Assembly: GCA_018398765.1 (NCBI GenBank)
Contig: JAHBMJ010004682.1
Location: forward strand, 2,501 to 43,899
Length of the DNA: 41,399 nt
Source of the DNA: Chromera velia
Taxonomy: Eukaryota; Sar; Chromeraceae
Reading direction: 5' to 3'
Translations under genes and position numbers: made by a program
The notes under the pieces: model-generated
What the model was told of the DNA's origin: nothing
The model's input: only the letters and a program-made list of their open reading frames with translations
The model's database searches: none
In this document: piece by piece, positions 18,828-37,359 of the stretch
How positions within the stretch are numbered: position 1 is the first letter of the stretch
How the letters are laid out: every line of letters starts with the position of its first letter

Positions 18828-20472
18828 TCAGAAGGTGATGCCCCCACCCCTTTCCTGTGACGCCCCCCCTCGACCCCTTCTATTTCCTTCTCCTGCTTGC
18901 TGCTGCTGCTCAGCCCCCCCTACGGGCTGCTGCTGATCAGCCCCCCCTACTGGCTGCTGCTGCTCAGCCCCCCCTACTGGCTGCTACTGATCAGCCCCCC
19001 CTGCTGGCTGCTGCTGATCAGCCCCTCCTGCTAGCTGCTGTTGATAAGGGTTTAGGGGGAGGGCGCCTGGAGGGAAGATCGGAAGGTTAGGGGGAAGATC
19101 GGGAGGAAACCATGCCTGCAGTGCTGGCACTTTGCTCTTCACATACACATTCCAGAAGGGGGGCTGTTTGGACAGCTTTCCCATCAAGTAGTCGTAGAGC
19201 GCCTTGACATGAATCCGGTTTGCAGGATGCAGTACTCCTCCTATCTCCTTCCGGTTTATCTTTGCCTTGATGGCACGTTGCATGCTGTTCCAGGCCTTCT
19301 TTGTGGGTTTGTTCTTTGTATCTTCGACTTCCCACATCTCCAAAAACTTGTAGGTCTGATTCCCTCGCCCGTCTCTGCCTACGTGTGAGTTCCACAGAGC
19401 CAGGTATACTTCTATAACAGCACGCCTATCCTGGTTGTTGAGCATCAGAGAGACGGAGTTTAACCCCGCCGATCCAACGGCAGCCGCCAAAATCCTGTTA
19501 TGCGCAGAGAAGATCAGCATCTGCACGCACAGAGATTGAAGGCAGGGTAAAAGGAGGTGACAGGAGGAGAGAGGAATTGAAAGCAGGGTACGTGAAAGGA
19601 GATGGTAGGAGGAGAGAGGAATTGAAAGCAGCTAGTGTGAAAGGAGGTGATATTGCACGACGACTGACCGTAAGCCAAGCCCTTTCCCAGAAAGTGATGG
19701 AGCAAAAAATTTCTCCCGTCTCTCCCGTATGACGAAGACTGTCGTCCTCCTTTATGTGTTGATGCTCGATGATCTCTTGCATGAGCCGCCTGTTAAAGGC
19801 CCCCTTATCCGTCTGGTTACACCTCTCTGCATATACACAAAGAAAAAAGAAATACATTGACACACGCCCAATCAGATCAGAACAGGGAAAATCGTTCTAA
19901 CTGACAGACCTGTCAGAGTTGCCATCCGGAACCATTCTGCATCCAAGAGATCCCCCAGTTTAAAAACCCTCAGTGACACTGCAGAGGCTGAAGACTGCGG
20001 ATTTAACACCTGCACACAGGAGGGGAGGGGAGCGGAGGGGAGGGTCGGAATTAATTGAAACCCAACATTTGTCTCAAGCGGAATGCTTTTGTTGAAACTC
20101 ACTGACCTGGGGTTGTGCTTGAAGTTGTAGTTGAGCTCTACTTCTGTCTTTGGCTTCTTGCTTGTACTGGTCAAGTATCATTTTGACTGCACTCTTTGCA
20201 CCTGCAGAATGTTTTGCATAAAAATTGGGGTCTGCTTTAAAGAACTCTTCGACCTCTGACGACAGAGTCTCCTGAACCATTCTACAAAAAATGGAAACAA
20301 CATCGAGATGGCCAGTCGATTCTGGGAGGATGGCTTTATATTGACTAGTATTCTGTAACACAATAACCTGCTCTCGGATCAGGTCAGAAAATTCGGTTCC
20401 ATCATCCTGTTCTTCGGCCATATCCAGACACGCAGCTAATTTCGATCGAAACAGAGTTGCTACTGCTTCCAT
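18828..20472 (-). CDS. Gene A: four-exon gene, unknown protein with Gln-rich C-terminal repeat
   Basis: Exons are 20472-20107, 20009-19910, 19826-19669 and 19520 onward. Donors are GTCAGT, GTCTGT and GTCAGT; acceptors are all TGCAG; introns are 97, 83 and 148 bases; all phases agree. The start ATG (MEAVATLFRSKL) is the first in frame, just after a possible upstream acceptor TTTTCCAG. The N-terminal 120 residues are helical and charged, ending in a Gln-rich stretch. The last exon includes FWNVYVKSKVPALQAWF, then proline-rich sequence, then repeats of QQQPAGGADQ. With the standard code it ends at TAG 18986-18984 after 386 residues. That TAG replaces a CAG in the repeat, and the frame continues through three more repeat units for 51 codons to TGA at 18830-18828. 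No known domain is recognised; the function is unknown. Confidence 0.7.
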
Positions 20473-20619
20473 GATGCCCTCTGGAAAATGGAAAGAAACG
20501 GAGTAGAGAGAGAAGAAGAGGTGACTCTAAGCTTTATACACATGCAGCGAGGTCTTGCGTCTCTGTCGATCTTTGTCTCTAGTATATACGATATCCTCTA
20601 TTCATTGAAGACGTCCACT

Positions 20620-20885
20620 TACCTTTTGGAACACGTGTGTCCTACATTTTGGAACGGTTCATCAAAACAAAATGGAGCACATTGCAGATCGGAGCAGATG
20701 GCTAGGTGTTCCAAAGTGTAGACCATGCTATTTTAGAACATGTTCCATTGTGTTTTGGAACAGGTCCTTGCAACACTTTGGCGCATGCATGCAATATTTT
20801 GGAACATGTGTCCCAATGCGTGCGCGCATTTCAGAACAACATTCTGACATTTTGGCACATGTTCCGATCTGATTTGGGGCCTGGG
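20620..20885. repeat. Degenerate short repeat around ATTTTGGAACATGT
   Basis: At least eight imperfect copies of a TTTTGGAAC-type word, often followed by an ATGTTCC-like or GTGTCC-like segment, occur at roughly 25-40-base spacing (near 20629, 20648, 20735, 20752, 20775, 20797, 20828, 20850). The array sits 150-400 bases upstream of gene A. It could be a decayed minisatellite or a cluster of binding sites. Confidence 0.5.
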
Positions 20886-20903
20886 TAGCGCATTAATCCA
20901 TTA

Positions 20904-21222
20904 ACACATGTCAATACAAACTCTCTCCAATTTGGTTATACACTCTTCAACCGCCCTCATGCCCGCCAGAGGCTGGAACGACGAAATAAAAGCGATCATC
21001 TCTCGGACTTTCTTTTCATTCTCCCCCACTCCTCTACTAGCAGAGGCAGCCATCCATTACGCAATTTCCACCCGTTTCTCAATGGGCGCGCGCTCCTTTA
21101 TTCTGCTGATAATTTTGTCAAGTTTCTGTCTTTCCCTCTCTGTGTTCACATATTCCGTGAGCAAGTGGATCTCATCACAAACTTTTCTGCCAGAGTAAGC
21201 AGGTCTTCTCTAGCTCCCCTCG
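20904..21222 (-). pseudogene. Coiled-coil exon, apparently interrupted
   Basis: After an acceptor GTGCAG (exon start 21222) the minus strand reads RGAREDLLTLAEK. One base later in frame it reads VCDEIHLLTEYVNTERERQK, followed by a continuous charged helical sequence to about 20904. A single missing base in an A run near 21182 would explain the shift. One in-frame TAA lies at 21059-21057 (VEIA-stop-WMAAS), with good coding character on both sides. It lies 430 bases upstream of gene A in the same direction and might be an upstream exon or the remains of a related gene. No family is recognised. Confidence 0.45.
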
Positions 21223-21655
21223 CTGCACATAACCACCCGTCATCGCTCTCAGGAGAGGGCGGATGTTTGTAGAGGATTTAAGAAGACAAGGGGACAGTAT
21301 GCGTATGTGCAAATCGTTTTCTGTGTTTGACGGACGTGACTGTCATTTCCTTTCTGCTAGGAGGAGCATGGAGAGCCTCTGTCTGGAAGGGTTCTCTCTT
21401 TGGAAATTAGTAAGAACAGCATGGGGATGGAAGATTCTGTCTTTATTCCTGTTGCCTTCCTGCTTTTTAGCCCATTCCCCAAGCCATTGGTTCGTCTGGA
21501 TCTTGCGACACGTCTCTTTCCGTTTATATTTCCTCTTTTTTTTTTATTTTTCTTGGCGTGGCTCATTCGTATCTTCAAGGAGAGAATTGTCAAGGGGCAT
21601 AGCCAGACGTTTGGTAGAGGATACAAAAGGGGCACTAGAACCAGCGATGTACGCC

Positions 21656-22900
21656 TCCTATACAGCCGTAGGTAAGACGCGTTCTATAGATTTGAGAGAC
21701 TGAAAGAAGCTGGCTACCTGTTTCACAAGCAGACAGCCAAAAGGTTTCAAACCAAAGGAATGAAGAGAAGGTGAGACAAAAGAGTTATGAGATAAACCAA
21801 ATGACTAGCAAATAAAACGAAGTTGCAATGCATCGAGGCATTGAACATCTGACTGCCCGAGAGGAAAGGCTTCAAGACCAAACATTGCAACGGGCACCTA
21901 AAGAGCTTTGAACAGTTGAATTCGTGAAAAAAAAGAAACGAAACCAATTGAAAAAAGAGTTCCAAACACACCCCCCAGTGCCTTTTCTGCCGATTCAATT
22001 CTTGCTTTCACAGTTTTACATAGATCCCCCCCCTCAAAAATCCAGTTGCCGAGGTATTTGTATTTATCAATATGCTCAACCGGCCTTCTATTAAAAACAA
22101 AAGGGGAAGCGGAATCAATGAGAGGATCAGGGGAAGATAGACGACGGATCTTTGTTTTTTTCAAGTTTGCCGTGAGTCTGTGTTCATTGCAGTATACCTC
22201 GAGGTGCCGGAGTCTCTCTTGCAGGTCTGCGGCGCTGTGAGCAAACAACATAAGGTCATCAGCATAACCAATACTCTCTATTAGAGTTGTGGAAAGCTTG
22301 ACAGGTTTGAAAGCGCTCCTTCCTTCATTACCACTCGGCTGTTGGTTCTCAGAGCTGAGGGCTTTGTGTAAATTGTTTATAAACAGGAGAAAAAGAAGAG
22401 GAGAAAGAGGATCACCCTGCTTTACACCCACTCCCTCTGATAAGCACTTGTCCCCCCTATCAACCCTTGTAGCAATATTATAGTACATGGAATGAATTAT
22501 GTGGATGTCTGCCTGACTGACCCCTTCATCCTTCATGCAGTCTCTCTAACATTTTCTCTTTAGGCACTGTATGAAAGGCTTTGGAAAAGTCTACAAATGC
22601 TGCAATGAGGGGTTCTTTTTTGTGTTTAGACTGAAAAATGAGAGAAGAGAGGGACGCGAACGCTTCCCATGTCCCCACGCCCCTCCTGAAGCCTAACTGT
22701 CTCTCATCGATCCTCGTCTCTTTACGAAGGCGGACATCCATAAAAAGAGCAAAAACCTTACCCAGAAGACCAACAATGTGAATAGGCCTCCATTCATTGT
22801 AATCAAGGGAAGGAGGATCCTTTAGTACTGGAGCAATCCTCAAGACGTTCCATCTACATGGCCAAAAGGAAAAAGAATGAAACAAATTGAAGAAGACAAA
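21656..22900 (-). mobile_element. LINE-type reverse transcriptase fragment, decayed or recoded
   Basis: The minus strand carries the ordered motifs of a non-LTR reverse transcriptase: an entry segment with NEWRPIHIVGLLGKVF (about 22800), QLGFRRGVGTWEA (22690), AAFVDFSKAFHTVPKEK (22590), VGVKQGDPLSPLLF (22430), the catalytic YADD at 22266-22255, and the thumb region (NLKKTK, KYKYLGNW). A one-base shift near 22535 splits the frame (the upstream frame ends at TGA 22526). After TAG 21900-21898 the frame continues with typical LINE thumb sequence (VPVAMFGLEAFPLG), passes TAG at 21807-21805 and at 21660-21658, and then stays open to a TAA at an A run near 21550. The 5' part, including any endonuclease, is absent. 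No flanking target duplication was identified. Confidence 0.75.
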
Positions 22901-22928
22901 GAGGAGACGCATACCAGGGCCCGCCGGG

Positions 22929-22971
22929 TTCTTTTTTGCCCCTCCAAAGCGGCGCTTTGCCGCCAAAAACT
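22929..22971. repeat. GCGGCG palindromic motif, second copy
   Basis: TTTTTTGCCCCTCCAAAGCG, then GCGCTTTGCCGCC and AAAAACTTG, matches the motif at 7881-7921 beside the second long palindrome. Here it borders the upstream edge of the LINE fragment. It may be a mobile-element terminus into or beside which the LINE was inserted. Confidence 0.5.
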
Positions 22972-23037
22972 TGACTGAACCAACCAAGTGGCCTCCAGAG
23001 CTGAAAGTTGGGGGATTTCTTACCTATCCCACTCCCA

Positions 23038-23130
23038 CACTGCGGGCCCGGCATCGTCAATGCCGGGGCCTATGAGCCATGGACGAACCATGGGCTCAAT
23101 GCCTGACCTTTTTCTGGTATTGAGCCCTCC
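23038..23130. repeat. Adjacent hairpins, copy 1
   Basis: Three stems follow one another: GGGCCCGGCAT-CGTCA-ATGCCGGGGCC; GAGCCATGG-ACGAA-CCATGGGCTC; and GGGCTCAATGCC with GGTATTGAGCCC at 23090-23125. The first two reappear in inverted orientation at 28497-28556. The segment lies about 250 bases upstream of gene C. Confidence 0.65.
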
Positions 23131-23346
23131 TGCCCTCCTATTTCTGGCATGGAGGCAAACATACACAGATGAACAATATGACCTCACAACCTTCTTAGTT
23201 GACTTCAGTGTTGCTGATGCCTGTACTTTTTTGGAGTAGAAACAGTTTCTGGGACGGCGAGATCGAGATCTCGATATTTAAGTTTTTTTCTTACTGTTGC
23301 TCGGAGACGTCTACTCAGATCCCAACTCCTTAAGAGCTTGTAGCCC

Positions 23347-24013
23347 ATGTTCATCATACTCTATATGATCCAAGTGCTTTGCAAACTCTATACTTGTCGA
23401 TTAGAAACGGTTTGCTTGGGTTCTGCCGCATTTTCTGTGGTGGAGGGGGTACAGTGTCAGCCCCCAGGTCCAGTTGCCCGGTATATGAAGGAGAATATCT
23501 CCATATCTCACCCTTACCCTTTTTGCCCGTTGATTTGCCGGGTACCGCAACAGCTCAATGACCACCTGCTTGTTTGCAAAGGTCGACAAGAAGCAGAGGC
23601 CACAGCCCAAGTGAGTGGTAGGCCCATCCAATTTGAAACCAACGATGTGGAAGAAGAGTGGGATGGAATGTATTTGGATCAACGCCCAACAATGAGAAGG
23701 GATGCTCTGATCAACTCTCTTCGTGCCGACATCATGAGAAAAATGAAATGGATTGGGGGCTCGAACGCGATACGTCGGTGACGAAGTCACAGAAAGCTGC
23801 ATTGTGGGTAGAAAGAACAAGCTGTACAGAATCATCGACGTGACTTCGGATTATGTGCTTTTGTCTCAACTCTCTGTAACAGAGCCGTTTCTTCTGTCGC
23901 CAGTTCTTATTGCACACGACAGGGGAGAAAACCTTTCGCGAAGAGTCAGAGAGGAGGTTGCAAATTTTGAGTTTTACAGCTTTCTTCCCTCAGAAATACA
24001 CGCAAGAGGTTGA
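23347..24013 (+). CDS. Gene C: unknown protein with CCHC-like knuckle, one frameshift
   Basis: The first frame (23347-23781) ends SLRADIMRKMKWIGGS..., and the second (from 23753) begins GARTRYVGDEVTESCIVGRK and runs to TGA at 24011. They overlap at a run of five G at 23753-23757; dropping one G joins them smoothly, so a one-base indel or sequencing error is likely. In the first part FCPLICRVPQQLNDHLLVCK has a Cys-x3-Cys-x8-His-x4-Cys spacing that could bind zinc. The second part is rich in short beta-type strands (KLYRIIDVTSDYVLLSQL). The beginning is uncertain: the first 40 codons look non-coding, and an upstream exon is likely. The family is unknown. Confidence 0.5.
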
Positions 24014-24617
24014 TGGGTTTTTCCCGGATTGAAGGACATCGTTTAACGATTGATGAAACTTACCAAAAATTTTGTTGAGAAATAATTTTTCTACTATTTT
24101 TTTAAAGTGATTTTGTCTATATTCACCCTAAGTCTTAGATCATTTAAAATTGCAAGCTAGAGCTGTCCCTCTAATGAACAATCATTTGCCTCATTTAGAA
24201 TCATTTAAACACTTCTAAACACTTTACATTTTATTTTATAATACTTAACGATTGATCAAACTCACCAAAAAAATTGTTGAGAAATATTTTTTCTATTATT
24301 TTTTTAAAGTGCTCTTCGACTGTTTGGTTTAATCAGGATAGCGAAAAAATGACAGTGTAGAATTTTGTGCAAATCTGCGACGATGTAGCCAGACACGCAA
24401 TGTTTCTATAGAGAAAGAATCAAAGAAATCTTCGGGTAGATTCCTAACCATCGGTCAGATGATTTTATTTATATATTTATCCTAAATCTTATATATAGCT
24501 AGATATATAGATCATTTAACGTAATTTTAACGTTGCAGGCTATAGGGCTGTTCATCTTGAAATATTTTTTTTTTTGTTTTTTTTTTTGTTTTTTTAAATA
24601 CAAATTTGTTTTGTCAA
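24014..24617. repeat. AT-rich spacer with direct repeats between convergent genes C and B
   Basis: A ~66-bp segment (AACGATTGAT, AAACTYACCAAAAA, TTTGTTGAGAAATA, TTTTTTTAAAGTG) occurs at about 24045-24110 and 24248-24312. A second pair (ATCATTTAA...GCTAKAGNGCTGT) lies near 24142 and 24510. T runs occur at 24566-24595. No gene is seen. Confidence 0.6.
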
Positions 24618-27600
24618 TCACAAGACAAGCTTTTCACACTTGTCGGGACTTCCACTTCTCGCCCTAGTTGACTGAGAAGGACCAGGTGGGGGAGAAATGA
24701 ATCTTAACAGACTGTATGGTAGATAACAATCAGAGACCACAAGATCTCCTCCCTCCGACAGTGATCTTTGCTTCTGGGGATTCTGCCCCTTCTGCCATGT
24801 AATAAAAACTTGGTCTTCCTCTTTTTCAATCGTTGCCCAGGTGTTTCTGGGGGTTCGACCGATTTTTGTTGCTACCCCCTGCAGCTCCGAGGTCATATGG
24901 ATGGTGAAAGGCCCCCGAAGGGCGGCGATCGCCTCAGGAGAGAAAGGCTGCTGCATAGTCAAGAACGGGTCTATGGGGGGGGGGTTCGGATCAAACATTC
25001 CCAGAGGCAGTAGCTTTTCTTTGAAAAAGTCTTTGTTTGTGTTCGCATCGACTGCACACAGAAGAGTGGGGGCTCTGTAGTGCATCTAGACTTCCTGCTG
25101 TTCTGCAAACTTTTCGAGGAGGTCCTCCTGGTGGCTCTCCCAGTCTGCTGTACCCCCTTTTCGGAGGGCTTTTCCCTTTTCAATCAAATCATCAACCCCC
25201 CCTTCTGCTTCTGCAACTGCCTCTGTGATGTCTTCGTTTTCTCGTTCTTTCTCAGTCTGCCCCCCCTCTATCTCGTTCTTCTCTGCCGCTCCTGCAACTT
25301 CCCTACCCTCCATGATGACATCACCCTGATTGTCGACACCAGACTGAGTGCTTTCAGGTTGTTCATGAATGCTAACTCTGCTGAGAGCTGCACTCGGAGA
25401 AGGGGGGGCTAGACGGGGGGGGGCAGTAGCCTCATGGTGAGGCTGAACTGAAACAGCAGCCACCGTTGCCGCGTTATTCTGTTTAGAGACCCAGCCCTCC
25501 TTCTGATTGAACCCAGTAGCCAGACGTTTAGCCTCTCTCGACACGCCCGTCTTGGAATGTCTGACACTTTTGACGGCGGGTGAGCCATCATCTTCGGGGG
25601 CGGCGCCTCCTAGAGAGGGGTGCGCATGGAGAATGATTTCTTTCCCGTCAACAACAGTCACACGTTCCTTCTTCCCATCTGTACTATCTCGCACAAAAAC
25701 GGGTGGGTTCTTAGGAGGGGGCATGCGGTGTTTGTCCCTTTCCAACGCTTTCACTCTCTCTTCTTCAGCGGTCTCCCACTTCTCCTTCCTTCTCACCATA
25801 AACACCTCCCAATCATTGTCCTCCATGTCCCCAAAGTGATCTTTGTTGGGGGGAGAGAAAGGACGGACATAGAGGGGCAGAGCCGCTAACTCTTTTGCCT
25901 TCTTTTCTTCTTCTGCCCTCTGCAACGCCCTCACTCTCTCTTCTTCAGCGGCCTCCCACTTCTTCTTCCTTCTCCCCATAAACACCTCCCAATCATCGTC
26001 TTCCATGTCCCCAAAGTGATCTCTGTTGGGGGGAGAGAAAGGACGGACATAGGGGGGCAGAGCCGCTAAGTTAAACTCTTTTGCCTTCTTTTCTTCTTCT
26101 GCCCTCTGCAACGCCCTCACTCTCTCTTCTTCAGCGGCCTCCCACTTCTTCTTCCTTCTCCCCACAAACACCTCCCAATCATCGTCTTCCATGTCCCCAA
26201 AGTGATCTCTGTTGGGGGGAGAGAAAGGACGGACATAGGGGGGCAGAGCCACTAAGTTAAACTCTTTTGCCTTCTTTTCTTCTTCTGCCCTCTGCAACGC
26301 CCTCACTCCCTCTTCTTCAGCGGCCTCCCACTTCTTCTTCCTTCCCTCCACAAACACCTCCCAATCATCGTCCTCCATGTCCCGAAACTGATCTCTGTTT
26401 GGGGGAGAGAAAGGACGGACATAGGGGGGCAAAGCAACTACTCCCTCTTTTGTCTCCTTTATCAGGGAGGCCCCCCCCCTGAGATGTGAAAAGACCCCTC
26501 TCATGTCATTTCTGCCTCCCATTCCGAGTGCTGCAGCGGCCGCAGGAGTAGGCGCAAGCATTTGTTCTTCGAAACTCCCTATAGGCTCGTCATCATCTCC
26601 AATGTCAACACATTCGGCGCCGTCAGACGGAGTAGGGGAAGCTTCTCGGCTCCGCTGATCAAAGCCAGAGACACCATAGCGACCTGCATGAAACGAAATA
26701 AAAAGTTTGAAGGAAACTCTATCTAGTGTGTACATTTACAAAGTGAAGAGCCGAAGAGAAAAACTTTAAGCAAGTGGGGAGAGGAGAGGGAAAGTCTCCC
26801 CGGAAAGACGGCCGGCCGCGGACTAACCTCTAGATGTACCGCCTCCACTTGCTGATGATGCAGATGAAATGAATCGGGAGGGCCCTGGGAGACCAAGAGT
26901 CTGGTTGGAGCCACCCTGCTGCATGCCCTGCTGTGCGAGAAGCAGTTCTTTCAGAGCATTCGCCTTCTCTTCGGCTGAAACCCCCTGCTTTCTCTCTTTC
27001 ACAGTAGCAATGACACTACATGAAAGCCACTTCTTCTCTTTGTCGCACCCCCATGTCTTGCAATACCCCATAACGCCGTCAACGAAGCAGCTGCAAAAAC
27101 ATATACAAATAGAGACAGACAGAATCAAGAAGGCAAGAAGAAGACGGACAGACAGAACGCACTGTTTAATGCAGGCCAACGTGCTGGAAGTCAATGACGA
27201 GCATGGAAGAAGGAGACGGACAGACAGAATGCATGGAAGGCTTAGCGTGATGGAAGAATGAAGACGAGCAGGCAAGATAGAGCTTACTGAAGGTAAACAT
27301 TGACTTACTTGAAATCTCTCTCTGATCCTTCTACGTCGTAGACCGTTCTCCACTCTTCTTTGTTGAGGACGACCTTGGACAGAAAAGGCATTCCTGCGAT
27401 GGTGATTGCACGGGCTGCCTGGAGTGAGATCCCCCAGATTCGGTCATCCTTCCTCTGGATCCTGCAGAGCACCAAATCTCCGGTCGCCTGCTTCCACCGC
27501 AACCAGATGTATTCCAACGACTTGGGGAGGACGTACTCACAAATCTCTGCCTTCAGGCGGTTCTCCTTTTCCTACCTGCAGTGGAGGCAAGGAAAGTCCG

Positions 27601-28105
27601 GATAGAGAGATAAAAAAGGATAATCTGGTGCAAACCGCAATCAACAGCTAGGTGCGAAGAGCCATCAAAAGCAGACTGACTTGTCAAGATGAGTGCTTGG
27701 CTGGATGACAGTTCCACCTTTCCCTGTTCTAAAAATATCATACCCTCTGTGAATGTGCCATATCAGGCACCTCCTCCTTTGGACTAGTTTGCGAACTTGG
27801 GAGTAGAAAAGACGGTGAAGCGGGGCATCATCAGGTTCATATATGACCCTCCTCGCCCCTTCTATCACTTCCACTGGAGTTTGACAGATAAACGAATAAA
27901 TTTCTGTGTCAGTTGGCTCCCCGAAAATCTCCTTCCACTCTGCCTCAGTCAGCTTGTCTGCATCTGAAAGCATCACATTAAGTTTCGTTGGAGAAGTAGG
28001 GGTCAGTTTGTTCAGATCCGTCACTGGAGCCTGAAGCAAAGGTGCTACTCGTGGCGAGCTGTCCCTGTCCGTCGCTCTTGTCGCTATCATATTCATTTCT
28101 GGCAT
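24618..28105 (-). CDS. Gene B: four-exon gene, unknown protein with four 62-residue charged repeats
   Basis: Exons are 28105-27681, 27575-27309, 27090-26828 and 26683-24618. Donors are GTCAGT, GTAAGT and GTTAGT; acceptors are all TGCAG; introns are 105, 218 and 144 bases. Phases agree only if TAG 27574-27572, the second codon of exon 2, is read. A weaker splice (donor GTCTGC at 27675, acceptor GGTAG) would avoid it. The start MPEMNMIATRAT is the first ATG and lies in a possible acceptor CCAG, so an upstream exon is possible. Exon 2 includes YIWLRWKQATGDLVLCRIQR and exon 3 has VDGVMGYCKTWGCDKEKKWL. Exon 4 holds four repeats of about 62 residues (ALPPYVRPFSPPNRDHFGDM, WEVF, then a KKKWEAAEEERVRALQRAEE helix). 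A second in-frame TAG at 25088-25086 is followed immediately by ATG and 155 more codons of coding character, to TGA 24620-24618. If both TAGs are read the product is about 1,000 residues. No known domain was recognised. Confidence 0.65.
25750..26465 (-). repeat. In-frame tandem repeat within gene B, four units of 180-186 bp
   Basis: The landmark GGACGGACATAG recurs at 25861, 26041, 26227 and 26413, so units are 180, 186 and 186 bases, all multiples of three. Copies differ mainly by scattered substitutions plus a two-codon deletion. The outer copies (nearest 25.8 and 26.4 kb) are the most diverged, which fits expansion from the middle. Confidence 0.85.
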
Positions 28106-28496
28106 GGAAACGGGAAGTGCAATTCATAAAACAAGACTTTGCGAACGATGAAACGCCAATTTCCTTCCAAAAAGCAGCCAAACAAGATTCAGAGAGACCA
28201 ACAGAGAATGTGTGAACCGTGCAGAGGCTTCCATCAGCAAATTTCTGGGCCTGACAGGGAAGCTTGCGACGTAAAAAGACCGTTGCACGTTTTTGCACGA
28301 AAGAATGGTCTTTTGCGCCAACCTTTACGTATATTGCAAAACCTGATTTCCTCGTTCACTACAAGTAATGTACCGTTTCTCTTCCTATTTTCTCGGCATT
28401 GTGCCTTCAAAACCTCCTGAATACGATGGTGGCACCAGGATTTATATTCAGAAACAGGATTACCAATGCCAGATACACCCCTCAATGAATGGAATC

Positions 28497-28556
28497 ATCA
28501 GGCCATGGTTCGTCCATGGCCTATGGGCCCTGGCATTGACGATGCCGGGCCCGCAG
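28497..28556. repeat. Adjacent hairpins, copy 2 (inverted relative to 23.04 kb)
   Basis: AGGCCATGG-TTCGT-CCATGGCCT is followed by GGGCCCTGGCAT-TGACG-ATGCCGGGCCC. Its reverse complement matches 23038-23093. It lies in the divergent space between gene B (minus) and gene D (plus); read in gene B's direction it has the same orientation as copy 1 has to gene C. Stem differences between copies tend to be matched on both sides. Gene D's only upstream in-frame ATGs (28505 and 28523) lie inside it. Confidence 0.65.
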
Positions 28557-29137
28557 TGCATCAATTCTGTGGAACAGAATCTCCAGACTTCAATTATAGC
28601 TAGTGCACCAGCAGTTTCCTGTTTGCCAGTTTGTTTTTTGAAAAAAATTCGTCTCCGCTCCCTTCCATCTCCATAGCTGCTGAAAGTGTGGAGGCAGCCA
28701 TCGCGGCAGTGAGGCAGTGCAGAAGCATATTTCTGGATGAGGGACCCATCACGGCCCTAATTTTAGCGTTGGAAGGAAAGTCGGCCCCCCGAGAAGAGAA
28801 GAAAGACGGAGTCCTTAAATTGTTTGACTCATTCCAATCGAAGATAACCAACTCTTTCTCTGTTTTATTCAAAAACCTGCTCTTGTTGACAATGTGGAGG
28901 CCTGAGTATGGGGCCAAGGAGGCTCCAAAAGAAATCCCAGGGCACTGGGTTGCGAGGGGCCGGGCCTTTTTTGACTTGTGCAAGGACGAATTCAATGAAT
29001 TTCACGATTCATTGAATTGGTTGTCCTACAGATTATGCGTGTCGAACGGCCTCAAGTACTTCGCGTTGAAGTACCGAGTCCTCTCGCTTACTACTTACCA
29101 GACGGACATTCTGACCGTCCCCAATGTCATCTTTTGA
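28523..29137 (+). CDS. Gene D: unknown protein, 5' end interrupted by TAG
   Basis: The frame is open from 28604 to TGA 29135-29137 and has clear coding character: ISIAAESVEAAIAAVRQCRS, then IFLDEGPITALILALEGKSA, KLFDSFQSKITNSFSVLFKN and DSLNWLSYRLCVSNGLKYFA. No ATG occurs in this part before MWRPEYGAKE at about 28891. Going upstream in the same frame, a single TAG (28601-28603) separates it from ATG codons at 28523 and 28505, with protein-like sequence between (VHQFCGTESPDFNYS). So it either starts within the hairpin motif with UAG read, has an upstream spliced exon, or is 5'-truncated. The overlapping frame 28368-28676 is an alternative first exon (it reads PPEYDGGTRIYIQKQDYQCQ). Family unknown. 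Confidence 0.5.
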
Positions 29138-29578
29138 AACCTGCTTGAACCTGCCAATACCAGTATTAACATAGTATAAACTAGCCTCAAACTGTTCAAA
29201 ACAAACTTAAAACTGATGATTTGACTCTTCAAAACTGTTATTGAGACACCTTGTCTCGGCAAGCTAGGCAGTCATGCATACGGGAAAAATATTATCAAAT
29301 TTTAATAAATTTGCGATGGAGCATTCAAGCTGGCAAACAAATGGAATCAGGGACAACAGAGAAAAAAATATGATAACAATAAAAGATCGAAAGCAAAAAG
29401 GTGCTGTGGCTGTTCGAGAGAGCCCTTTTCTCAGCTTTCCCCCCTCATGTCTTCTCTGCTTAGCCCCCTGCTGTCTCACTTATAGCCACAGAGCCGAAGC
29501 TCTCCTCTAGAGAGCGAGGACTATTCTGTTGGGGTAGGGGACGTTGTTGCTTGCAGGTGGGAAAGCAGTGACAGCAGT

Positions 29579-29956
29579 ATGGAAGAGTGGTTTATCAGCA
29601 AAGCTTTAGACTTAATTGATCCATCTGATGTGCACCCGACAACAAAAAAAGGAAGAAGTTTGGGGGTATCTCGGATTGCCCTTATTGAAGAGAATGCCGC
29701 ATTTTCCGCTCATATCATTTCATATGAACAGGTTTCTTCTTCAGATGACACAACAAAGTTCAAACCGCTTTTATTTCGTGGCACGTTGACGCCAAAAACT
29801 AACAACACACCCCTTTCTACTGTTTTTTTCTGGTTGCATTCGGTAGCTTTGGTTGAGGGGGGGGTAACGGTGAATAACGACAAGCTTGCTCGCGCAGAAA
29901 GTCAGTTTAATGATATGATTGAGCGTGAAAGTGATGAAAAGGATGAAACCCTATAG
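29579..29956 (+). CDS. Gene E: small unknown protein
   Basis: An ATG-started frame of 125 codons (MEEWFISKALDLIDPSDVHP ... ERESDEKDETL) has balanced, soluble-protein composition: an acidic tail, a beta-like centre (FKPLLFRGTLTPKTNNTPLS), and a hydrophobic stretch FFWLHSVALVEGG too short to span a membrane. The ATG lies 22 bases after a TGCAG (29552-29556) that could be an acceptor, and the frame is open back to it, so this may be a downstream exon. The frame ends at TAG 29954-29956 but stays open 21 codons more to TGA 30020. Family unknown. Confidence 0.5.
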   Translation: MEEWFISKALDLIDPSDVHPTTKKGRSLGVSRIALIEENAAFSAHIISYEQVSSSDDTTKFKPLLFRGTLTPKTNNTPLSTVFFWLHSVALVEGGVTVNNDKLARAESQFNDMIERESDEKDETL

Positions 29957-30022
29957 ATGAAAGCTGAAGGAGAGTTAAGTTATATGGTTTTGAAATCATG
30001 TCTGCTGGTATTAATGAAGTGA

Positions 30023-30690
30023 TTTGAAGCAGGTTATACCAGGTTACATAAGGTTTAGGTAGGTTAAGTGTTAGGTTATATAACGATATTTTTACTATTC
30101 TTAGAACCCTAAGTGGCAACATAATGAAAACCTTAAATAACCATCATAAATCATGATATTACAAGTCTTTTTTTAAGTTTATGAAGGTTCTTTTAGGTAA
30201 AAAACCACATTAAACATACTTTTAGATGTCTAGAGTGTTTTACATACTTGAAGGGGGGGGTATAAAATTAATTTTTATTATTTTTTTTTTAAGTGAAATA
30301 CCCTAGAAAGCGAAGTACTTCAGCTTCAGCACACTCGACCACAGCGAGATATTCTTCGTCAAAGTCCTTGTCCCACTACTTTCTGAACGCCCTGGATTAG
30401 TAGGGTGAACGTTAGTGGAGATCAACGAGTCTTTAGTTCATAAACGAAGAGACATAACGAGACATGACACCCCCTCGGATGGAGAAGATGTGGGCCGACA
30501 GGGTTTGCCGAATTGGTCTGCTAGCACGGAGGGGGTGAGGGGCAGAACGTCTGCTAGACAGTCACGTCAAGCCATCGTTATTCAGGGTTAGAGTCTTCCG
30601 ATCCTCTCTTCAACGTCTGCAGCCCTTATCCAAGCCAGTCTACTGCGTAGAGTCGTGACTAGATCAACTCTCTCTGCAGGCCGGCGTTCC
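30023..30690. other. No gene seen; AT-rich then mixed DNA
   Basis: 30023-30300 is AT-rich with AGGTTA words (AGGTTATACC, AGGTTACATAAGG, AGGTTTAGGTAGG) and a T10 run. 30300-30690 is mixed and ends with CTCTCTGCAG (30671-30680), an acceptor-like site 14 bases before the RNase H start. Confidence 0.4.
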
Positions 30691-30693
30691 ACC

Positions 30694-31245
30694 ATGTTGT
30701 CTGCTGTCTGGTCATTAGATGCCCACCGTTCAGGCACTTACCCGTTTTTCTCCCTTCTGTTACTCTCATAAGTGTCAGTTGTCTACACGGATGGCGCCAG
30801 CCGCTCTAATGGTACGCCTCACGCGAAGGCGGGTTATGAAACATATTGGGGTCCTGGACATCTATGTAACCTCAGCTGTAGACTCAGAGGTAAGCAGACA
30901 AACAATCGAGCCGAGCTGAGTGCGATCATAGCTACGCTTGAAACTGGAATTCTCTATAGTCCTCCTTGCACGCTGATAGTCAAATCTGATTCGTGGTATG
31001 TTTGCCGAGCTCTGGAGTCATGGGTTCCGCGATGGGAAAGAAATGGTTGGAGGAGACCTCATGGAAAGCCAATGTGCAATTAAGATTTGATTGGCAAGTT
31101 GGTTAGCCTTGTTAATGAATACGAATGGGTACTGGGGGGGCCTGTGTCCATCTAATGGGTGAAGGCGCACAATAAAGAGCCTGGTAACGAGGCAGCGGAT
31201 GCTCTCGCTGTCAAGGGTGCACATCTTCCCATCCTTTGTGCATAA
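30694..31245 (+). pseudogene. RNase H1-like ORF with three internal TAA codons
   Basis: From ATG 30694 the frame reads a short hydrophobic leader, a TAA (30769-30771), then a well-preserved RNase HI fold: VYTDGASRSNG (first catalytic Asp), QTNNRAELSAI (catalytic Glu), VKSDSWYVCRALESW (Asp), ERNGW, a TAA (31081-31083), DLIGKLV, a TAA (31153-31155), WVKAHN and GNEAADALA (the His loop and last catalytic Asp), ending at TAA 31243-31245 where the family usually ends. All four acidic active-site residues are present. The enzyme cuts RNA in RNA-DNA hybrids; the leader could suit mitochondrial or plastid import. Unlike the neighbouring genes it has no introns, so a retrocopy or retroelement-derived domain is possible. 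The internal TAA codons make it a pseudogene under the standard code. Confidence 0.75.
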
Positions 31246-32576
31246 TGTTCTTGTCTGTAAAGGAGTAGACGGTTAGGTGTGTTGGCCTGATACACTGGGC
31301 TGGAGTGAGAGAGCGTAACTTGAGGTGGAAAGAGAGATTTAGTTCTGGCCTTGGAAGTTGAAGACTGTTTGGCGCTGCATCCTCCTCTTAGAGCTAGAGG
31401 AGGTTGTGCTGACTGAGTTTATCCATTCTTCTTCTTGGTCGTTGATGCAGCATGCTTGGTAGGAGTTCTTCTCCTCTTAGTATGAGTCGGTTTTCTGCCT
31501 TGGCCTGTTTTTTCTCATTAACTGGTACTGTATGCCAGAGGCTTTTTGTCTAAGACCACTTTAGGGAGTGGGCCGATAGACCGTATGCATGACCAGACAC
31601 GTAGCGTGCGGCGGGTAATGCCGAGCAGTTACGTGATACATGTGTATGGGGTGGAGGTACTACCCGGACGGGTGGATGCTTCCATACCCCCCCTTAATAC
31701 CTAATACCTAATGCTAGGGCCTCTCGCTCAGCAGATCGAGCCCCCGCGATCGAGGCGACACGCGCGCTCCAAGGATCGACCGCTCCGCGCACCCTCCGCG
31801 GGGCCACAGAGCCGATCTGCATGGGAGGATCGAAATTCGATCAGATCGATCAGATCGCAAGTTCATGCAATTAATGCATGCGTGCGAGCGCGTCTCTGTA
31901 CGAGTTTCTGTTGCAGCGGGGAGTGAAGGAAGGAGTGAAATAAAGAAGGAGTAAGAAGGAAATAAAATGAAGTCATCAGGTGGGGAGAGGCCAGCGGTTG
32001 CAGAGAAAGAAAAGTTTAAAGAAAAGACAGATGAAAGTACGACAGTTGAGTCAGGCGTAGTCAAAGGTGGAGAAAAGTGGTGAAGCCATTGCGCTCGATG
32101 GCATAAATAGAAGAAATACTAGGCAAAGACGCGATAGCAAGGCAGGTCGTTGCAAAATCAACCCGACTGGATAGACTCTAGGCAAACAGGTCTAGGCACG
32201 ACTCCCAATGCCGAGCAGTCTACGGCCGGTATGCTGGGACGTGCTATGCATCCCCGAACCGTCAGAAGAAGTTTCTGTTGCTCATGCAGCATGACAATAT
32301 GCTTTTCCTAGCTTGCAAAACCCGATCGAGACTCACGTACGTGCGCAATTGATCAATCGATTCCTGTTCTTTGACGAGTCCGTGAGAAATTGACACTTCC
32401 GGAGCAGTTAATCACGGCCTGAAAGGCGAATCAAGTACATAGACAGCTTGTCGATCGTTCTTGTAGTCCTTAACGCAAGAAATAGATAGACCTCTCACTC
32501 AGAGACCTTTGACCAAAAGAGTTCTCTGTGCCTGTGACCGAACAGTCAGACCGCATCTTCAAAGAGGACGTACGTC
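31246..32576. other. Upstream region of the phosphatase gene; no gene seen
   Basis: Mixed DNA without a supported ORF. 31830-31860 has repeated GATCAGATC words and 31865-31890 is CATGCAATTAATGCATGC-like. 31920-32090 is AG-rich. The region presumably holds the phosphatase promoter, but I see no definable element. Confidence 0.4.
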
Positions 32577-35500: not shown

Positions 35501-37359
35501 CGAAGGACCGGCTGCAAGAAGGAAGAAATTGAAGGCTTCGGTTATCTATCAGACAATCCGTTTATATTGGGTAGCAGTATGAGAGAGGAAATGAGTATCA
35601 TTGTGTTTGAAAAGCCAGTCATCTTGAGTGAAGACGGTTGCTTTTCATTTGTCTTCCCTTCTCCCATGCAGACCCGAAAGATGTCAAACTTACGAGACCC
35701 GCGTGGACGAAGGCGACCTGGTAGTGTTGTGTTCCGACGGTGTGACGGACAATTTGTGGGACTTCGAGATCGAGGCGCTCCTCTCTCTTGCCGTCTCCCC
35801 GAGAGAGGCTCTCGTCGCGTTCGGAGACGAATCGATGGCCACACCTCCCTCGGTCCGTCACCTTGCAACCACGCAAACCTTGCAAGAGAACCAGCCAGTC
35901 TGTCTCTCAGTATGTGTGTCACTTCATCAAGCGCCAAGTGCAACGGTATTTCCTTAGCCTCACCGTGTCAACACGGGGCGTCAGGTCTACCTCTGTCCTC
36001 CCGCTCCCCCTCTTCCCCTTATTGGTCTATCAGTCCGTCCGTCCGACTGTCTGTCTGTCTTCATGTTTTTTTGAGCCCCCTGCCGAGCTTGTCTGAGTGA
36101 CCGTGTCGTTCTTTTGTCTTGTATTCGTTCTTTCTTTCTGCAGCGAATGTGGAAGGAATCAAACAAGGAGAAAAAGAGTCTGCCTGTTAGTCTGTCTGTC
36201 TCTGAATGCGTCCCCCCACGTCCAGCTCCCCCTCTCAAGTCCAGACAAACAGTCCGGAAGAGGAATGAAATCCGGTCGTGCACTGTCGAAGAAGGGAAAG
36301 GAAGAAGTGGTTGTTTCTGTAACCTCTCTTCTTCAAACGAATCGTTCCCCTCTCCTTCCTTCCTTCATGCCTGCAGATGATCGCCAAAGCCCTGACCATT
36401 GCGGCCCTGCACAGATCTCTTGACCCTCGGGCCTGCACTCCTTTCTTGCACAGGTGGGCAGGCGATGCTTTCTTGTGCCTGTCTCGCAAAGCTTCAGTGA
36501 ATTCAGCTGTTCTCTCGCGCTTGCGTATGTGTCTTTTCGTCTGTGTGGTTCCGGTCAGCTTAAGGATCCATGGAGAAAGGAAACCGTAACTTCTCCCACG
36601 CAGAGCTGTTCTTATCCCTCCCACGGAACGTGTCGGCTTTGTGTGAACGTGTGTTTGCTACTCTTTCTTTCTCTCCATCCAGCACAGGTGATGCATGGAA
36701 TTCTTTTTTCTTCCCGTTTCTCTCCACACTGTGACTATGCCTTTTCTAAGACGGAGAAACGAAAAGAACTCCAATCCAGTCTACACCGCCAACAGAAAAG
36801 ATCAATGAGAGTGTGTGAGTGCTTCGGCAAGTGTGCGTACATTCTGGATGTATGTGCATGTATCGGTTCGCGCACGCCCGACCAAATACTGATGGATGTA
36901 TTCGTATTCATGCATGCAGAATGCCCGACGAGATCCGGCAGCAGTGCGGTTATGTGGTCAGACAGGATATCGTAGAGGGAGAAGAGACTGGAGGGGGGAA
37001 GCCTGATGACATCACGGTCAGTCAGCCAATCGGTGAATCAATCATGGGTGCGGATGGATTTTTGAGGACACATAAGAAACACAGGTGACCAGCTACAGAA
37101 AGTCAACACATGTCAAGAAGACAGACATACAGACAGGACATGCAAAAGAGAAAGAATGAGGGACAGATGGATGGATCAGAATGAGGATGTTTGGATGAAA
37201 GGACGGCAGCGTTGGCGCCCTGACTCACAAGCGAGCAATAGATGCCTTCATTCCCTCCCTCCCTTGGAGACAACCGTGAATGCAAAAATGTACGTGCATC
37301 AGAATGAAAGGATGGATGGATGCGTGCAGGTTGTCGCTGCGTGGGTACACGGAGGCTAA
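32577..37359 (+). CDS. PTC7-type PP2C protein phosphatase, seven exons
   Basis: This is a metal-dependent Ser/Thr phosphatase, assembled from exons 32577-34666, 35159-35377, 35672-35909, 36144-36185, 36377-36453, 36920-37016 and 37330-37359. All join in frame to 930 residues ending at TAA. Core motifs, in order, are ADCFLL, VADGVGEW (Asp402), GSSTLCLAVL, NLGDSS (Asp569), RTQEQQH/WNCPFQF across the first junction, GDLVVLCSDGVTDNLWDFEI (Asp792), AKALTIAALHRSL, TPFLH, and GGGKPDDIT/VVAAWV (Asp918-919). The EQQH-NCPFQ signature points to the PTC7/PPTC7 branch. Two features differ from the family: a low-complexity N-terminal extension of about 300 residues, and a Ser/Glu/Arg-rich insertion of about 100 residues between NLGDSS and EQQH. 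The 42-base fourth exon is the least certain. ATG 32577 is the first in its frame. No signal peptide is seen. Confidence 0.85.

Follow-up and report, generated by a model that had tools for sequence, protein, structure and literature searches.

Stop codons inside frames that otherwise look coding have been described in several settings. In the ciliate-type nuclear code (NCBI table 6), UAA and UAG (together UAR) are read as glutamine and UGA is the sole stop. In fungi, repeat-induced point mutation (RIP) prefers cytosine followed by adenine (CpA), according to PMC12543289. Decayed long interspersed nuclear elements (LINEs; non-LTR, that is non-long-terminal-repeat, retrotransposons) carry stops and frameshifts that arise independently in each of many copies. 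Here we compare these systems with a stretch of 41,399 nucleotides of Chromera velia (contig JAHBMJ010004682.1, positions 2,501 to 43,899 of the forward strand), hereafter the window, from whose first base all positions are counted. An earlier note, made from the letters alone, had reported TAA or TAG (together TAR) codons and no in-frame TGA across seven gene-like loci, and had proposed either that UAR is read as an amino acid, probably glutamine, or that CAA and CAG codons have decayed at CpA in silenced copies. The positions that it gave for 11 TAR codons and four terminal TGA codons were all correct (15/15). We conclude that the window very probably carries a nest of defunct or decaying mobile elements of the C. 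velia nuclear genome, and that its in-frame stops are mutational damage and not a new code.

The window sits on contig C3592 of the C. velia assembly that was searched (177.8 Mb, 4040 contigs). The published assembly comprises 193.6 Mb with approximately 30 Mb of transposable elements, as given in its description (PMC4501334).

Source Codons of the In-Frame Stops

Copies of these elements elsewhere in the genome allowed the source codons to be read for nine of the 11 TAR sites, four being tryptophan (TGG) and five glutamine. The LINE copy (20886..22906, minus strand) was compared with 12 other copies from 19 fetched, five divergent ones as well as L035 and L036 being excluded. TAG 21900 is TGG in 10 of these and TAG in two, TAG 21807 is TGG in all 12, TAG 21660 is TGG in 11 and TAG in one, and TAA 21059 is CAA in 10 and TAA in two. 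A further TAA of the LINE, at 21546, was set aside because its surroundings are A-rich and full of indels, the copies reading CCA, CTA or CAA there. The fourth tryptophan site, TAG 27574 (27572..27574, minus strand), belongs to an element with terminal inverted repeats (TIRs) and is TGG in both other copies read (L129 and L130). In the glutamine-rich repeat that the earlier note had called gene A, TAG 18986 is CAG in C1271, the sole copy reaching the site, and the neighbouring repeat units of the window also have CAG. The remaining three sites lie in a repeat unit encoding RNase H, for which 14 other copies were counted: TAA 30769 is CAA in 10 and TAA in four, TAA 31081 is CAA in 13 and CAG in one, and TAA 31153 is CAA in all 14. 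In all nine resolved stops the change is C to T at CpA; it lies on the coding strand where the source is CAA or CAG and on the opposite strand where TGG became TAG. Other copies also have stops of their own; with the window copies included, a source codon could be assigned to 48 stops (reverse transcriptase (RT) stretch, 23; RNase H stretch, 25), of which 41 are TAR.

Glutamine is thus what relatives have at 18986, 21059, 30769, 31081 and 31153, and tryptophan what they have at 21900, 21807, 21660 and 27574. The second proposal of the earlier note, decay of CAA and CAG at CpA, named the right mechanism and left it incomplete, with TGG to TAG making up four of the nine changes and TGA not being spared. 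Copies of the same families with CAG or CAA at the stop sites and many other C-to-T changes, which the earlier note had named as evidence against recoding, are what was found.

Indels, together with C-to-T transitions affecting either strand, have broken the former reading frames of these mobile elements. A transition at CpA turns CAA or CAG into TAA or TAG, and TGG into TAG, while TGA arises only by rarer routes, from CGA (at CpG) or from TGG (at CpC), so that TAR stops predominate without any recoding. Such decay mimics recoding in that TAA and TAG accumulate at glutamine and tryptophan positions and TGA is rarer. An apparent sign of a novel nuclear code is thereby explained away.

The absence of in-frame TGA did not hold up. 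Aligned by codon to its relatives, the LINE copy shows a TGA in frame at 21345, which is TGG in 11 and TGA in one of the 12 other copies. TGAs also lie a short distance upstream in the frame of TAG 27574, in all three aligned copies, and that stretch is therefore an intron or not continuous coding sequence. In the genome-wide search for the LINE family (126 of 1471 candidates scored), TGA was present in 40 of the 125 other matches listed, with totals of 49 TGA, 92 TAG and 57 TAA. From codon content and context-dependent rates, the predicted share of TGA among stops is 0.16 for the LINE and 0.39 for the RNase H unit. TGA is not unexpectedly rare, and none in nine is unremarkable at the LINE share (P = 0.21).

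Mutation Spectrum of the Repeats

These stops are made by C-to-T decay affecting both strands of old repeats, with a preference for CpA and, in the broader counts, for CpG as well. C>T together with G>A accounts for 81-88% of substitutions in three repeat families, namely 612/721 in the LINE (13 copies), 641/787 in the RNase H unit (15) and 142/162 in repeat element D (13), the last compared through 12 other copies fetched out of 13 near-complete ones, C128 being excluded. The rates per cytosine for the LINE, the RNase H unit and D, respectively, are 0.089, 0.080 and 0.043 at CpA, 0.087, 0.110 and 0.082 at CpG, 0.040, 0.030 and 0.025 at CpC, and 0.044, 0.036 and 0.026 at CpT; cytosine before A or G thus mutates about twice as often as cytosine before C or T. 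The A>G rates are 0.004, 0.009 and 0.003, and C>T exceeds A>G 7-16-fold, or 6-8-fold in a strict set restricted to singletons with invariant neighbouring bases. In this strict set CpA still exceeds CpC and CpT combined in the LINE (p 0.003), the RNase H unit (p 0.03) and D (p 0.02).

Several observations weigh against this account. TAG 28601 did not arise by decay in the window copy. Of 13 D copies, 11 have TAG at this site, one has CAG and one TAC; the substitutions lack codon phase on its upstream side (164/164/152), in contrast to the third-position excess downstream (49/51/95). The ATG of the family stands at 28673 (ATG in the 12 other copies, ATA in the window copy), and this, along with the lack of codon phase upstream, places TAG 28601 5' of the reading frame. 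A further same-frame stop was present upstream of 28601 in the five D copies inspected, TGA in four and TAA in one. TAG 25088, in locus B, lies outside the copy stretches compared, L129 and L130 having no locus B stretch. The locus B copy C359, compared for 24744-25044 only, has 12 differences in 301 bases with no third-position excess and a frame that is open in both. With regard to the spectrum itself, polarity was taken from the commonest base per alignment column, without a tree. The pooled strict singletons give CpA an odds ratio of 1.87 (p 1e-5) with dependence between sites and copies ignored, and their CpG excess is significant in D only (p 0.0015; LINE 0.12, RNase H 0.13). The share of C>T plus G>A is 70-78% in the strict set (LINE 89/127, RNase H 94/121, D 41/54) and 76% (415/543) when 15 RT copies are taken with one divergent copy among them. 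Additionally, the TpA/ApT ratio is clearly raised in the RNase H unit only (1.01), the other elements (0.58-0.72) overlapping with non-repeat stretches (0.47-0.81).

Assembly or sequencing errors are a highly implausible source of the stops. The assembly is a draft and homopolymer frameshifts had been noted earlier; however, the stops all result from a single kind of base substitution, changes of this class turn up independently in copies located on different contigs, and some stops are common to several copies, as at 30769 (5/15). An ordinary genome-wide mutation bias, unlinked to repeats and displayed by the elements because they are neutral and multi-copy, is possible though doubtful. Neutral DNA often shows a C-to-T bias, and CpG is depleted, at observed/expected ratios of 0.68 for the whole window and 0.78 for 20 other loci. 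The size of the C>T excess over A>G speaks against such a bias, as does a control pair of histone loci without an excess of this kind, although selection acts on that pair and its differences carry no polarity. In this partly coding pair, 105 of 204 differences are transitions, and no excess at CpA was seen (20 before A, 22 before C, 25 before G and 15 before T).

Possible Origins of the Cytosine Decay

C-to-T decay of the repeats would be accounted for by deamination, in silenced copies, of cytosines that are methylated or exposed in some other way. A search with PF00145 returned four matches on three contigs, among them two genes whose closest PDB chains are DNMT2. The search works exon by exon and its counts are lower bounds; within that scope its small yield, two DNMT2-like genes and one fragment, weighs against the simple methylation version. 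The fragment (C675, L105) is the C-terminal part of a cytosine methyltransferase with the motif GNSVSVPVI, unlike the two DNMT2-like genes. Nothing on DNA methylation in C. velia was found in print in the searches made, and neither "methylation" nor "genetic code" occurs in the main text of PMC4501334. A plant-like signature of methylation at CHG (H being A, C or T) was sought in the RNase H unit only and rejected, as CAG is not above CAA, CAC or CAT, and CCG and CTG are low.

The likeness to ascomycete RIP lies in C-to-T changes that favour CpA in repeats and in TAR stops that derive from CAA, CAG and TGG. A RIP-like process, with a dedicated machinery that detects repeats and converts their C to T mainly at CpA, would fit the CpA-favoured excess in each of the three families and its absence from the unpolarised histone pair. 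Nonetheless, we consider it improbable. In the RNase H unit and in D the preference for CpG equals or exceeds that for CpA, CpG and CpA being hit about equally in these repeats, and no consistent per-copy strand bias of C-to-T was found. No enzyme of the RID or Dim-2 type was recognised in C. velia beside the two DNMT2-like genes and the one fragment, and the host is an alveolate. The likeness rests on the spectrum and not on repeat specificity, which a single coding pair of histone loci cannot settle. Also unlikely, and speculative, is a broader reading in which C. velia directs cytosine decay at both CpA and CpG onto its mobile elements as a genome defence, either RIP-like or linked to methylation, whose agent may be the DNMT2-like enzymes or some methyltransferase or deaminase that escaped recognition. 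These repeats provide material for asking whether a photosynthetic organism closely related to the apicomplexans marks its transposons and mutates them.

Standard Stops in the Nuclear Code

In-frame TAA and TAG at some glutamine positions are what the window shares with the ciliate-type code. A nuclear code of this type, with UAR as glutamine and UGA as the sole stop, would account for the five resolved sites at which relatives have glutamine, and all eight open frames inspected among kinase matches do end at TGA. These frames may, however, end within introns, and TGA is the commonest stop triplet in that kinase DNA (2252 vs 1017 TAA and 855 TAG). Four TAG sites are tryptophan in relatives, and as the other five are glutamine no single meaning of UAR fits.

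UAA and UAG also end genes in C. velia. Of 12 histone loci, seven end canonically, directly after what we take to be the usual histone C-termini, one at TAG (L044) and six at TAA (L045, L046, L050, L051, L052 and L055); two H3-like loci end at TAA, one of these having an internal TAG, one locus ends at TGA and two were unreadable. Two divergent H3-like copies (L047 and L048, on C1557 and C1899) have the same downstream sequence, and a TAG in one of them corresponds to glutamine in the other. The open reading frame of the LINE closes with DMC followed by TAA in 13/13 copies, the TAA of the window copy being at 20903. The release factor eRF1 encoded on C1868 (L056) carries TASNIKS and YLCDNKF, which we take to be canonical motifs and, presumably, the mark of standard stop recognition. 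An eRF1 paralogue on C3696 (L058) has VASNIKS in place of TASNIKS, and YVCNSAF. Among 136 kinase matches, 125 have no internal stop, five have a TAR and eight a TGA.

No suppressor tRNA was seen, as none of the 44 tRNA genes read has a CTA or TTA anticodon; this comes from 52 genes listed after scoring 63 of 4117 candidates, a small fraction that is no proof of absence. A search for the tRNA-Gln arm with a CTA or TTA anticodon gave no perfect match and three imperfect ones, one of which is the known tRNA-Gln(TTG). Taken together, the source codons, the ends of the histone genes, eRF1 and the kinase matches rule out recoding of UAR, to which we attach next to no probability. The reading of UAR as an amino acid must accordingly be abandoned, given the mixed tryptophan and glutamine source codons and the genes that end at UAA and UAG. 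Separately, the plastid contig C213 (L101) has reading frames that require TGA to be tryptophan; uL14c encoded on a plastid-type contig of the assembly is 100% identical to the C. velia protein.

Architecture of the Element Nest

The seven gene-like loci all fall within five elements that are repeats or mobile. The gene A repeat element (18847..20888, minus strand) contains glutamine-rich tandem units and has copies on C1271 (L108, L109 and L112) and C644 (L107), the similarity to the C1271 copy ending at 20888. These copies have stops of their own: C1271 has a TAG and a TAA at positions where the window has CAG and CAA, and C644 has a TAG at a window TGG.

The adjoining LINE copy is 5' truncated and has at least 125 other matches. 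By Pfam, its RVT_1 domain is split over two frames, with a frameshift near 22526. Its 3' end is sharp at 20886, most other 3' matches starting at query base 7. The RVT_1 domain, the many copies and the constant 3' end identify it as a LINE, and its copies have independent stops and frameshifts, as decayed LINEs do; no feature was found that sets it apart from these. The 5' edge, at about 22906, is placed from the start of element D and is accordingly approximate.

Repeat element D is split into a 5' part (22907..23037, plus strand) and a 3' part (28559..29115, plus strand), the latter holding TAG 28601. The D copies L117, L126 and L127 align to 22907/8-23035/7 and resume at 28559/60-29115. Between the two parts, and thus inserted within D, lies the TIR element (23038..28558, no strand assigned; 5,521 bp), with copies on C3475 (L129) and C1422 (L130) and in part on C359 (L131). 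Its inverted repeats are 59 bp long and 54/59 identical, its ends read CACTG...CAGTG, and it is flanked by a 2-bp target duplication, CA. The inverted ends and the target duplication are shared with CACTA-like or other TIR DNA transposons, and CACTA-like is the superfamily label that we would presume for it. It differs from these in that its target duplication is 2 bp and no transposase match was obtained in Pfam for the frames scanned (B, C and 27668-28105). The element contains loci B and C along with TAG 27574. Locus B (24618..26735, minus strand) comprises a 549-aa frame, TAG 25088 and a 155-aa frame; its Pfam matches are below the curated cut-offs, and a homologue search with its first 78 residues gave two candidates, neither significant. 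The frames of A, C, D and 27668-28105 had no Pfam match.

The RNase H repeat unit (30306..31712, plus strand; 1,407 bp) matches PF00075 with an E-value of 1.8e-29. It is a high-copy unit whose copies are 88-91% identical with nearly identical ends where aligned, and RNase H is its recognisable domain. A short repeat at 2498-2841 of the window also adjoins the RNase H copies L015 and L021. Scans of the window with Rfam and for tRNA genes found none, and for the putative phosphatase of the earlier note Pfam gave only a sub-threshold match to SpoIIE, in an exon at 35628-35954. Finally, an open frame of 533 codons at 2-1603 is without a significant Pfam match, and its 1282-1408 portion recurs adjoining a D copy.

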